From Alicyclobacillaceae bacterium I2511 (lineage in GTDB: Bacteria; Bacillota; Bacilli; Alicyclobacillales; Alicyclobacillaceae): a stretch of 37,512 nt of DNA. Within the stretch, counting starts at the first letter, position 1. Each line of letters opens with the position of its first letter. A model generated the notes under the pieces. The model searched no databases. It worked only from the letters and a program-made list of their open reading frames with translations, and was not told where the DNA came from. The translations under genes and the position numbers were made by a program. Of the stretch, positions 3,931 through 28,610 are shown piece after piece. Where the stretch lies: contig QXHL01000025.1 of the NCBI GenBank assembly GCA_003584005.1, forward strand, positions 1-37,512, written 5' to 3'.

Positions 3931-4782
3931 CTATCGCCAACCGGCAGTCCAACGCAAGCTCCAACGATAGGCGAATAATGCAATTAGCATCACAACAATC
4001 ATATCCATGGACAAGGCATCTCCAACGCCAATATTCATCCCAACATTTCCATTGATAAGAAACCCAATTTGTACAGGAACGAGGTTAATGGTACCCGCAG
4101 CTAATGCATAGGCTGTCACGTACGCACCAAAGGAGTTTGCAAACAAAAGAGCAAATACTCCTAATGCTGGCGGAAGCAAAATTGGGAAAGCAACCTTCCA
4201 CCAATAAAGGGGTCTTGAGCCTCCTAAGGTTTGATGTGCTTCCAACCATTCCTGACGCAGTCCCAGTACTGCAGGAAGGATTAATAGAACCGTTAATGGA
4301 ATTTGAAAATTAGAGTAGACAATTACCAGGCCGGTAATACTCAACAAACTAAAGCCAGCCGCATAGATATTGATTCCAAATAAATGATGCAAAAGATTTG
4401 TATAAACTCCATTTGCACCTAAGCTCACCATAAATGCAAAAGCTAGCGGCACCCCCGCAAAGTTGGCAGTCAAAGCAGAAAAGCTCTCCAAAACACGGGC
4501 CATTCCCTGATTTTTTTCACGAGAAATGGCAAGTGCCGCAATAACTCCTAAAACCAACCCAATCAGCGCACTAATCAAGGACACGTACGTCGAAGTAAGA
4601 AAAGAAGAGCGATATTGTGTGGACCATGAAGAACTTAGATTATGGATAGAAAAACTACCGTTATTCAGGAATGTCCCTGATAGAATGCCCAAAACGGGAA
4701 GTATTTCAAACAAAAAAAGAAAAAGGGCTAGAATAACCAACGTCCCTAGCCCCATTTTACGAGATAAAAATCTATGCCTCAC
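3931..4782 (-). CDS. ABC importer permease 1, PotB-like
   Basis: Inner-membrane permease of 283 aa with an N-terminal signal-anchor-like helix and about five further hydrophobic segments. The EAA region is present as EWLEAHQTLGGSRPLYWWKVA followed by FPILLPPALGVFALLFANSFGA. The GTG start overlaps the stop of the binding-protein gene (GTGA), so the two are probably translationally coupled; AGGTG lies 8 nt upstream of the GTG. It pairs with the downstream permease to form the heterodimeric channel. Confidence 0.85.
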   Translation of the reverse strand: MRHRFLSRKMGLGTLVILALFLFLFEILPVLGILSGTFLNNGSFSIHNLSSSWSTQYRSSFLTSTYVSLISALIGLVLGVIAALAISREKNQGMARVLESFSALTANFAGVPLAFAFMVSLGANGVYTNLLHHLFGINIYAAGFSLLSITGLVIVYSNFQIPLTVLLILPAVLGLRQEWLEAHQTLGGSRPLYWWKVAFPILLPPALGVFALLFANSFGAYVTAYALAAGTINLVPVQIGFLINGNVGMNIGVGDALSMDMIVVMLIALFAYRWSLRWTAGWR

Positions 4783-7214: not shown

Positions 7215-7303
7215 TACGGTTGGTATATTAAAGGCAAACCAGCGGTGACGCTGGGACGCAAAGCCTCGGGTCTGTCTCCAGGCAGATGGCCAGGTTGCTG
7301 CCA
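7215..7303 (+). promoter_or_regulatory. Cyclic di-GMP-I (GEMM) riboswitch aptamer
   Basis: Conserved GEMM blocks are present in order: GGCAAACC (7233-7240), a short stem closed by a GNRA tetraloop (AGCG-GTGA-CGCT, 7241-7252), GGGACGCAAAGCC (7253-7265), a second longer stem, and a tetraloop-receptor/3' strand region with CAGGTTGCTG (7291-7300). These are the hallmark ligand-site and tertiary-contact sequences of class I c-di-GMP aptamers. The element is followed by an intrinsic terminator and then by a GGDEF gene, a known genomic context for this riboswitch. Confidence 0.92.
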
Positions 7304-7421: not shown

Positions 7422-8543
7422 ATGCCTGACGGAGACGATGTCTACGCTACCTTGTTACGAAAAGTACGGGATTACGAGTGGTTGGATAGGTGTTCAGAAC
7501 CGTTCACCACAGCTACCGACGTCGTAGAAATGATGAACCATATTCGTGCGGGAATGATGGAGCGGTTTGAGTTTGACCGCTTTGGTATTCTCGTCGCCAC
7601 CGTCAATAACCACTATTGTATCATTCATGAAGTGGTCACCCGACAAGACATGGAACCCGTTCCGGCCGGCTCGCTCATGCTGGTGGAAAACACAGGTGTA
7701 CAGCGGGTGTTCAACACGCGATGTTTCCATTACAACCCGGATGTGGCACACCAACCAGAGTTTGTTGAAGACGCGGAATTTATTCGCATGGGACTGCGCA
7801 GCATTGTTCGTTTACCGCTACTGTCCGCTGGCCAAGTGCTCGGTGTGATGACCGTAAAGAGTGTGCAACCCCACCGGTACAATTCGCAAGATGTGCAACT
7901 AATGGAACGCATTGCGGGCAAATTCAGTGCGGGGATACGCTCGCTCAAGCTCATCTATGACCTGCGCGAGGCGAGTTTTAAAGATTCCCTCACCCACGTG
8001 ATGAATCGGCGCTTTCTAACAGAGGTCGCAGACCAACCGGACAGCGGGCTGTTGGAGGAAGTGACTGGCTTGCCGACGCCAAAAGACCCCACGCTTACCG
8101 TACTCTTTGTCGATATTAACGATTTCAAACAGCTCAACGACCAAAACGGTCATTCCGTGGGCGACAAACGGCTGCAAGACGTGGCCCAGTTGCTGCTACA
8201 CATCACCCGGGACAGAGGATTTGTCGTTCGTTACGGCGGTGACGAGTTTCTTGTTGTGCTACCGGCGCCAATCATCGGTGTGGAAGAACAGGTTTATCGT
8301 CAGATTCTTGACGGCGTAGCCGTGTTAAACAACAAGTTGCCTGACATCCGGCCCATCCACCTGAGCCTGGGACTGGCACATGGGGACTGGTATCACTTGG
8401 ATGCCCTCATCCATCAGGCAGACATGGCCATGTATGCACACAAAAGCAACCAGAACCAATCTAACCAGTACCAATCTAACCAGAACCAACCCAACCCAGA
8501 GGCCCAGTCCAGACTAGCCAGGGACACCTCCCCCGAGACCTGA
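7422..8543 (+). CDS. GAF-GGDEF diguanylate cyclase
   Basis: Makes c-di-GMP from two GTP. Residues about 30-175 resemble a GAF sensor (RSIVRLPLLSAGQVLGVMTV). Residues about 185-340 form a GGDEF domain with the metal-binding Asp in LFVDINDFK and the intact active site RYGGDEF (GGDEF at 272-276). The allosteric inhibitory site expected nine residues before GGDEF reads RDRG (263-266), not RxxD, so product inhibition through the I-site is probably absent. A Gln/Asn/Ser-rich tail (about 342-358) follows. No membrane segment is seen. The start is uncertain: ATG 7422 has AAAGGA about 15 nt upstream, longer than ideal. Expression should be set by the c-di-GMP riboswitch and terminator in the leader, giving feedback control at the RNA level. 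Confidence 0.9.
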   Translation: MPDGDDVYATLLRKVRDYEWLDRCSEPFTTATDVVEMMNHIRAGMMERFEFDRFGILVATVNNHYCIIHEVVTRQDMEPVPAGSLMLVENTGVQRVFNTRCFHYNPDVAHQPEFVEDAEFIRMGLRSIVRLPLLSAGQVLGVMTVKSVQPHRYNSQDVQLMERIAGKFSAGIRSLKLIYDLREASFKDSLTHVMNRRFLTEVADQPDSGLLEEVTGLPTPKDPTLTVLFVDINDFKQLNDQNGHSVGDKRLQDVAQLLLHITRDRGFVVRYGGDEFLVVLPAPIIGVEEQVYRQILDGVAVLNNKLPDIRPIHLSLGLAHGDWYHLDALIHQADMAMYAHKSNQNQSNQYQSNQNQPNPEAQSRLARDTSPET

Positions 8544-12096: not shown

Positions 12097-12164
12097 TTTG
12101 ACTTTGACTTTGACTTTCTTTGACCTTCTGACTTTTATTATACCCAGATTTGACCTTTGTGCAA
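12097..12164 (-). promoter_or_regulatory. clpE promoter with CtsR operator array
   Basis: On the minus strand the -35 TTGCAC (12164-12159) and a perfect -10 TATAAT (12142-12137) are 16 bp apart. A consensus CtsR operator, GGTCAAA-GAA-AGTCAAA (12125-12109), lies just past the start point, with two more overlapping AGTCAAA heptads down to 12097. One further GGTCAAA (12155-12149) sits in the promoter spacer. Confidence 0.85.
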
Positions 12165-12209
12165 CCCCTTCAGAAAAAAATTTAGGGTAGTGGAGCAGGG
12201 GGAGAGGAA

Positions 12210-12450
12210 ATAAGCGTCCCCCAGTCGCTAAATCATTAAATATCGAGCGATGAAACACAAATAAGGGTGTGAAAGTCGCCTATTGCGCGTTTTCCCCCTG
12301 TGTTTGCACCGATTTTGTTGAAATAAGGGCCTGGCGGACGCCTATTGATGCGAAACGCGGCTTGAAAAGGCCCATAAGCGACCTGTGGTCGCTTATTTGA
12401 GACCGTCGATTCAATTCCTAAGTAAATCCTAGCTGGGGGATAATTTGCAG
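12210..12450 (+). repeat. 240-bp intergenic repeat, copy A
   Basis: This stretch matches 28313-28555 in the same orientation without any gap; by hand count about 193 of the 230 positions from 12211 agree. It contains four dyads of the form ATAAG[CG]G-N9-CGCyTATT, at 12210, 12261, 12323 and 12374, i.e. spaced 51, 62 and 51 bp. The outer two are best as palindromes (the last is a perfect ATAAGCG/CGCTTAT). No conserved reading frame is apparent. It lies between the clpE promoter and the 3' end of the glutaredoxin gene. Function unknown; see findings. Confidence 0.85.
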
Positions 12451-12459
12451 AAGAAACCC

Positions 12460-12714
12460 CTATGAAGAAATATGCGGGTGCTGAAGGAGAAATTTCTTTA
12501 ATTCCGTCACATCTGGACCGACTAATACGGTTTCACCATACTTTAGAATTGGCAACCAACGATGGCCTAAAGTCTCGGCTTCCTGCAAAAATTCTTCTCT
12601 TTCGCCGACATCTCGCACCTCAAACACAACTGCTTGGCTCTGTAGGAAAGCTATCGCCTGTTCACAAAAGCTACAACCCATTGCAGAATACAAAATGGGC
12701 AAAGTCTGCGCCAT
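12460..12714 (-). CDS. Glutaredoxin-like protein
   Basis: Small thioredoxin-fold protein of 84 aa. The active site CSFC (GCSFCEQAIAFLQ) is at residues 14-17, the cis-Pro in WLPILKYG follows at about residue 55, and GPDVTELKKFL forms the C-terminal helix, as in glutaredoxin/NrdH-like proteins. It probably reduces disulfides or transfers thiol equivalents in the cytoplasm. It is the last gene of the minus-strand cluster that starts with cytochrome b6, only 27 bp after the DoxX-like gene, so it is probably cotranscribed and may serve redox maintenance of that system (inference). Confidence 0.85.
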   Translation of the reverse strand: MAQTLPILYSAMGCSFCEQAIAFLQSQAVVFEVRDVGEREEFLQEAETLGHRWLPILKYGETVLVGPDVTELKKFLLQHPHISS

Positions 12715-28038: not shown

Positions 28039-28312
28039 CAGACTTTTGTCATTGGCTTACACAATCACTTTACCTGAATCACTTTGCCTGAACCCTCTCC
28101 CTGGATAATGGATAATGGATACATCCCTAAGCACTCCCCTGCGCTCTCCCACTAAGAATGAACATGTGCATGCTCCATTTTACGTAAAAACATCCATATT
28201 GGACCATCTATGTTAGGAACATGCGGTTTATAGCCCAAATTTTTTTGCGGGGCACTTTTTCTGCCCTGGCCTCAGGGGGAAGTGCAGGGGATCTATTTTT
28301 ACGGTTCTGGAA
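28039..28312. other. Gene-free stretch
   Basis: Nothing coding is supported here. Short direct repeats (CACTTTACCTGAATCACTTT at 28068-28087, TGGATAATGGATAATGGAT at 28102-28120) are the only visible structure. Confidence 0.4.
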
Positions 28313-28555
28313 TTAAGCGTCCCCCAGTCGCTAAATCATCAAAAATCGAGGGCTGAAACGCAAATAAGGGCGTGAAAGTCGCCTATTGCACGTTACCCCA
28401 CCGTGTTTACGCCAAATTTGCTGAAATAAGGGCCTGGCGGACGCCTATTTATGAAAAAAATGACTTGAAAGAGCCCATAAGCGACCTGTGGTCCCTTATT
28501 TGAGACCGATGAATCAGTTCCCAAGAGAATCTTAGATGGGAGGTTCAATTTGTAG
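28313..28555 (+). repeat. 240-bp intergenic repeat, copy B
   Basis: Same orientation and exactly the same length as copy A at 12210-12450, about 84% identical by hand count. The four dyads lie at 28313, 28364, 28426 and 28477, again spaced 51, 62 and 51 bp. Dyads 1 and 4 are slightly degraded relative to copy A (TTAAGCG at the first, CCCTTATT in the last arm). It stands in a gene-poor region rather than next to clpE, so the conservation is not due to shared neighbours. Confidence 0.85.
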
Positions 28556-28610
28556 ACTATTGCTCCATTTAGGAACGATACTTGGGGATTCATCGTTGTT
28601 CAACGGGAGT

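Follow-up and report, generated by a model that had tools for sequence, protein, structure and literature searches.

Two arrays of four dyads

The window analysed here is the whole 37,512-nucleotide stretch of DNA from Alicyclobacillaceae bacterium I2511. It holds two copies of an array of four dyads, which spans 189 bp from the first to the last dyad. Each dyad is 25 bp long and follows the consensus AATARG-N13-CYTATT with some departures. The features of the two copies are as follows.

12209-12397, no strand assigned: array copy 1; dyads, by position and score, at 12209-12233, 12260-12284, 12322-12346 and 12373-12397; model match 12206-12398
12398-12463, + strand: genus-specific 3′ flank of copy 1, beginning with the TGAGACCGTCGATTCA motif at 12398 (18-mer match); consensus homology stops at 12463
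28287-28311, + strand: genus-specific 5′ flank of copy 2, common to other copies in the genome; consensus homology from 28287
28312-28500, no strand assigned: array copy 2; dyads, by position and score, at 28312-28336, 28363-28387, 28425-28449 and 28476-28500; model match 28308-28501
28501-28556, + strand: genus-specific 3′ flank of copy 2, truncated; consensus homology stops at 28556

An earlier note on this DNA had claimed four dyads per copy with starts 51, 62 and 51 bp apart, and the dyad coordinates confirm this in both copies. It had also put the identity of the copies at about 84% without an indel. The absence of indels stands for the 189-bp array, which aligns ungapped from dyad 1 to dyad 4 at 85.7% identity. 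It does not stand for the last 20 bp or so of the full 241/243 bp that the note had considered; over this full length the copies are 83.5% identical and differ by two 1-bp indels, each close to the 3′ end. Dyad 1 is imperfect (A[A/T]TAAGCG...CGCTAAAT). The 3′ flank of copy 1 is truncated short of the outer right-hand terminal repeat. In 809 kb of the genome to which the window belongs there are 38 cases of AATARG facing CYTATT across a 13-bp gap, and the 40 other gap lengths between 0 and 40 bp together account for 7; the dyad pattern is therefore far beyond chance.

Two other features of the window were observed. Upstream of a clpC-like gene, positions 12103-12169 hold a TTTGACC/GGTCAAA-type stretch, a possible CtsR operator, which is 91% identical to the sequence in the sole genus relative sampled, G001 (MAG DAHWFY01, 'Bacillota bacterium isolate clean1249'). 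Synteny with G001 breaks just past this stretch. G001 is without the array element upstream of clpC and, with the break in synteny near the insertion, the comparison provides no clean empty site. A c-di-GMP-I-GGC riboswitch (RF03167) at 7224-7303 precedes the gene for a GAF-GGDEF protein at 7422-8543.

Copies, spacing and flanks within the genus

Searched with a sequence-only model of the array, the 3.48-Mb assembly of the window's genome (G000) yields about 59 long matches; blastn of the same assembly gave 40. G001 has fewer copies. For some genomes the copy counts are to be read as at least the number given. The G000 copies are mostly 75-95% identical and are dispersed between genes; all 30 copies in the 0.8 Mb that was fetched sit outside ORFs of at least 150 aa. 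Our ORF-based statements rest on a simple ORF caller and not on annotation. Thirteen of these 30 copies lie on the majority gene strand and 11 on the G-rich strand, so that no orientation bias relative to genes or to replication is apparent in this set. The array has stops in all frames, which rules out coding sequence. A cis-regulatory leader or riboswitch was also ruled out, since the copies have no fixed strand or position with respect to the next gene and no Rfam match.

In a tree of the G000 and G001 copies the divergence is star-like and the closest pair is 95% identical. A few G001 copies are nested among those of G000 and the others form separate branches; the array family thus predates the split of G000 and G001 and has not undergone a very recent burst. 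One pair of copies (L013 in G000:C161 and L038 in G001:C308) has the same right flank after the array in both species, and at least one insertion may therefore be orthologous.

The internal geometry of the array is strongly conserved. A spacing of 51/62/51 occurs in 45 of 65 copies and fragments, 51/61/51 in 12 and 51/62/41 in one; the rest are incomplete. In 33 full copies, none of the 6,230 cells of the array core carries a private indel, compared with 11 of 3,115 in the next 95 bp (Fisher p ~6e-6, or ~6e-5 without homopolymers). Since copies were detected via their core, those in which it is badly broken will be too few in this set, but an indel of one base would not have kept a copy from being found. 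Substitutions per cell increase from the dyad arms (0.041) through the dyad centres (0.078) and the inter-dyad DNA (0.091) to the flank (0.138).

The longer G000 copies reach about 490 bp or more and contain a mosaic of flanking modules. These longer copies have the 18-mer TGAGACTGTCGATTCACT on the left, a near copy of it immediately after dyad 4 and, on the right, a copy in inverted orientation. The flanks vary and are often truncated, as they are in both window copies. Neither the G000-type flanks nor the imperfect inverted 18-mer terminal repeats were seen in other genera. A separate palindromic repeat of 50 bp, GTGCGTGTCCGGAAAGGGGTCTGGTCAGACCCCTTTCCGGACAACTTC, splits one G000 copy (L004, G000:C130, ~4690-4740) and has TATAT on either side. 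Similar 50-bp palindromic repeats also occur near other array copies.

Geometry, ends and carriers in other Bacilli

The sequence model also matches G041, from another genus of the same family, near full length, and G016 more weakly. Both have four dyads at the same spacing with different DNA between and around them. For a census of the class we used a pattern that requires one pair of dyads 51 bp apart with at most two mismatches and leaves the other intervals free. The four-dyad geometry, without overall sequence similarity, was found in 16 of 399 Bacilli genomes and 12 of 145 genera; a reversed control pattern was found in none of the 399. In a sample of 398 genomes from the phylum, the only matches were the window's genome and one weak match, against two for the control, which is chance level outside the class. 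As far as sampled, the array is confined to Bacilli. It is patchy within genera, being present in some species of one genus and absent in others; G163, G337 and G400, for example, have arrays, and G212 and G416 of that genus have none. Blastn found the array in one genus where the spacing pattern found it in 12; ordinary similarity searches miss elements that are defined by spacing.

The intervals left free in the census are 51 and 61-62 in nearly all genomes. A middle spacing of 72 is seen in most G400 arrays and in one G163 array, and both genomes also have 62. When any offset from 45 to 75 was allowed, the matches listed contained 75 pairs, all at 50-52 or 61-62 (hand count). At the fetched loci, 249 of 252 distinct dyad pairs are 50-52, 60-62 or 72 bp apart. 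The steps between these values equal one turn of B-DNA: a middle spacer that differs does so by a single helical turn. Between neighbouring dyads, the half-sites that face each other are separated by about 32, 42-43 (or 53) and 32 bp, corresponding to about 3, 4 (or 5) and 3 helical turns. The G400 copies align with each other only over the dyads, yet 51/72/51 is kept. The bases beside the half-site core vary by genome (for example CGGC, ACTG and GGCC), and the property common to the arrays across genomes is the half-site core ATAAG together with the spacing.

In G041, G070 and G292, homology between copies often stops at the outer dyads or a few bases from them, unless it runs into tandem repeats. 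The outer half-sites are inverted but short. We found no target-site duplication at the ends of bare arrays, where direct-repeat identity equals that of shuffled flanks, and no transposition event was seen for a bare array. In G292 one array does form part of a 773-bp MITE, which has ~22-bp terminal repeats (TAAACC[A/G]TTC[C/T]GTTTT...) and 9-bp target duplications, for example CTAATTTGC and TCATTTGAG. This MITE is located at G292:C1:975315-976088 and in 11 further places (L236-L245, L279-L290), the copies being 93-97% identical. By inspection, most of the copies examined appear to be inserted in the loops of terminator-like hairpins, with flanks that read as the two halves of a stem-loop. G292 also has many arrays without the MITE, and its arrays are found across the whole chromosome.

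Most arrays in G041 (L196-L211) are flanked by copy-specific tandem repeats of 7-11 bp. Whatever the strand, the left-hand repeats are rich in G (mean skew +0.31) and the right-hand ones in C (mean skew -0.34), the two sides having opposite sign in 18 of 21. Tandem duplication of the whole array is frequent in G041, G016 and G044. Arrays repeated in tandem two or three times with a period of ~250-480 bp are seen at L202, L210, L212, L213, L266, L270, L271 and L275. Among the sampled loci, only part of which were annotated, the only shared neighbour genes are common paralogues such as histidine kinases, MCPs and ABC transporters, and no binding protein was found. A phage or plasmid origin was considered and rejected, as the queries used matched nothing in phage records, plasmid records or IMG/VR.

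Nature of the array and relation to known systems

We observe a defined architecture, a constraint on spacing, discrete unit ends, dispersal, and a patchy distribution in Bacilli. In our judgement these features are probably those of a dispersed, non-coding, helically phased protein-binding array, although we have no binding data. The eight half-sites (core ATAAG) are arranged as four 25-bp pairs in inverted orientation, each of a size to suit one protein dimer, and we infer that an as yet unidentified dimeric DNA-binding protein occupies each dyad. Since the facing half-sites are about 3, 4 (or 5) and 3 helical turns apart, the four dimers would lie on one face of the DNA and could assemble into a single nucleoprotein complex, in which the middle segment would tolerate only whole-turn changes in length. 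Such a row of dimers would select for spacing that is kept without sequence alignment, as in G400. The bases adjacent to the core differ between genomes, which would be expected had the specificity of the binding protein diverged along with its sites. Spread of the array is also only inferred. The array itself appears to be the copied unit and, because it is non-coding, dispersed and patchy, it has presumably spread by functions supplied in trans, either alone or within larger carriers such as MITEs.

The dyads could instead be the four hairpin stems of a structured non-coding RNA (or of single-stranded DNA), with the fixed spacing arising from folding; we regard this as unlikely, though deserving of consideration. 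The folding energy of the window copy is below that of shuffled sequences on both strands (z -2.4 and -2.9) and the G041 dyads can form long perfect stems. In G041 and G070 the complementarity of the inner stem positions exceeds that of shuffled halves, which a hairpin would require, though related copies could also produce it; there is no such excess in G016, G400, G044 or G000. In 27 copies from G000 and G001, pairing and compensatory changes in the four local hairpins are equal to or below those of shuffles, and at several arm positions most copies have a mismatch. A long-range helix between dyads 1 and 3, suggested by folding, was rejected because its pairing and compensations equal those of shuffles, and the RNAalifold consensus is weak. 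There is in addition no strand relation to genes, no Rfam match above the gathering score or in a permissive search, and folding fails to predict spacings of 62 and 72 with nothing between. Although hairpins cannot be ruled out in every genome, the arrays do not have them as a common property. The preference of the earlier note for DNA binding over a four-hairpin RNA is thus supported: inter-dyad sequence drifts across genera while the spacing stays at 51 / 61-62 / 51. Its argument from helical phasing gains from the altered middle spacer becoming 72, one turn more, and the comparison that it proposed, of compensatory change with strict spacing, gave covariation no higher than in shuffles within the window genus and a spacing that is kept. 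Variable spacing or target duplications, which the note had named as refuting its reading, are not seen for the array itself, whose spacing is fixed and whose ends lack duplications. Larger mobile carriers nevertheless exist, with imperfect terminal repeats in G000 and as a true MITE in G292.

These carriers bear on two further explanations. In one, which we think distinctly unlikely, the array serves a family of mobile elements as its resolution or recombination site, with several recombinase dimers on phased subsites, and now survives as dispersed non-autonomous remnants. Phased subsites about five turns apart do recall res sites, an array is carried inside the G292 MITE, and tandem duplication is common in G041, G016 and G044. 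Against this, no recombinase gene adjoins the sampled arrays (annotation being partial) and the dyad centres are not conserved between arrays as crossover would need; moreover, serine recombinases cross over at a central dinucleotide and 25 bp is an odd length. The other explanation is that of a plain MITE whose geometry is baggage from an ancestral element. The inverted 18-mers bounding the longer G000 copies, the array-bearing MITE with its 9-bp target duplications and the star-like divergence would all fit, but the array is common to genera whereas terminal repeats and flanks are not, and bare arrays have no target duplications. Baggage would not preserve spacing in otherwise unrecognisable copies, nor would it have fewer indels than the flank. 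The spacing constraint is hard to reconcile with a plain MITE, and we consider this explanation improbable. Dozens of intergenic copies per genome, a strong spacing constraint and a core without private indels would also suit a host site for chromosome organisation or replication control, with a role comparable to that of matS, Noc sites or replication terminators. Such a site would not be expected to lack a fixed strand with respect to GC skew or genes, to be absent from some species of a genus, to be spread over the whole chromosome as in G292 or to be frequently duplicated in tandem, and we give this explanation very little credence. Chromosome organisation, replication or partition control, and regulation, the more specific roles suggested in the note, are not favoured because there is no strand bias and the distribution is patchy.

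Returning to the protein-binding array, we suggest, tentatively and with less than even confidence, that what is inherited in this class of element is a geometry, in which four dimer sites keep a fixed helical phase and nearly all the DNA between them is free to drift. The unknown protein would build a complex of four dimers on each of dozens of dispersed arrays, and in this way would help the arrays to be copied and to be duplicated locally in tandem. The recurrence of the same geometry in scattered Bacilli points, at the level of sequence, to an undescribed docking array for DNA-binding proteins. If the protein were confirmed, a new nucleoprotein system with dispersed sites would be defined in Bacilli, and the site variants that occur naturally in different species could be matched to variants of the protein.

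We know of no four-dyad phased architecture in bcr1, BOX or RUP, the sequences of which were not compared with the array. Like the array, bcr1 and other repeats of the Bacillus cereus group and the pneumococcal BOX and RUP elements are multi-copy intergenic sequences of ~100-200 bp from Firmicutes (PMC6542083, PMC3049150). REP/BIME elements, tagged GTAG or CGTC, are also short, intergenic palindromes present in many copies, patchy between species and often grouped (PMC3733652). REPs, however, are single 20-40 bp hairpins or dimers with a GTAG or CGTC tag and variable spacers (PMC3733652), whereas the arrays have four dyads at a fixed phased spacing that is kept while the sequence drifts. The unpaired GTAG/CGTC of REPs at the hairpin foot is absent from the array dyads, which begin with AATARG and have variable bases after their end. 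Bacterial MITEs (reviewed e.g. in PMC10969869) share with the arrays a non-coding, dispersed, multi-copy character and the lack of a transposase of their own, but the array lacks a target duplication, and what defines it is its internal geometry and not a set of terminal repeats. We found no published description of the array in open-access PMC full text; subscription papers and preprints were outside the scope of this search. As a broad class, interspersed palindromic repeats are known; what could not be placed is a phased architecture of four dyads that is conserved without sequence. Interspersed repeats are normally recognised by their sequence, the four-dyad array by its spacing.

The res sites of serine resolvases (Tn3/γδ) resemble the arrays in having several dimer-binding subsites at fixed helical phase, and changes to their spacers are tolerated in whole turns only. 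A res site consists of three subsites adjoining the resolvase gene, with a crossover subsite of even length. The arrays differ in having four equal 25-bp dyads and dozens of dispersed copies, with no adjacent recombinase seen at the sampled loci. By analogy, the nearest mechanical counterpart of the array would be a multi-dimer recombination site such as res.
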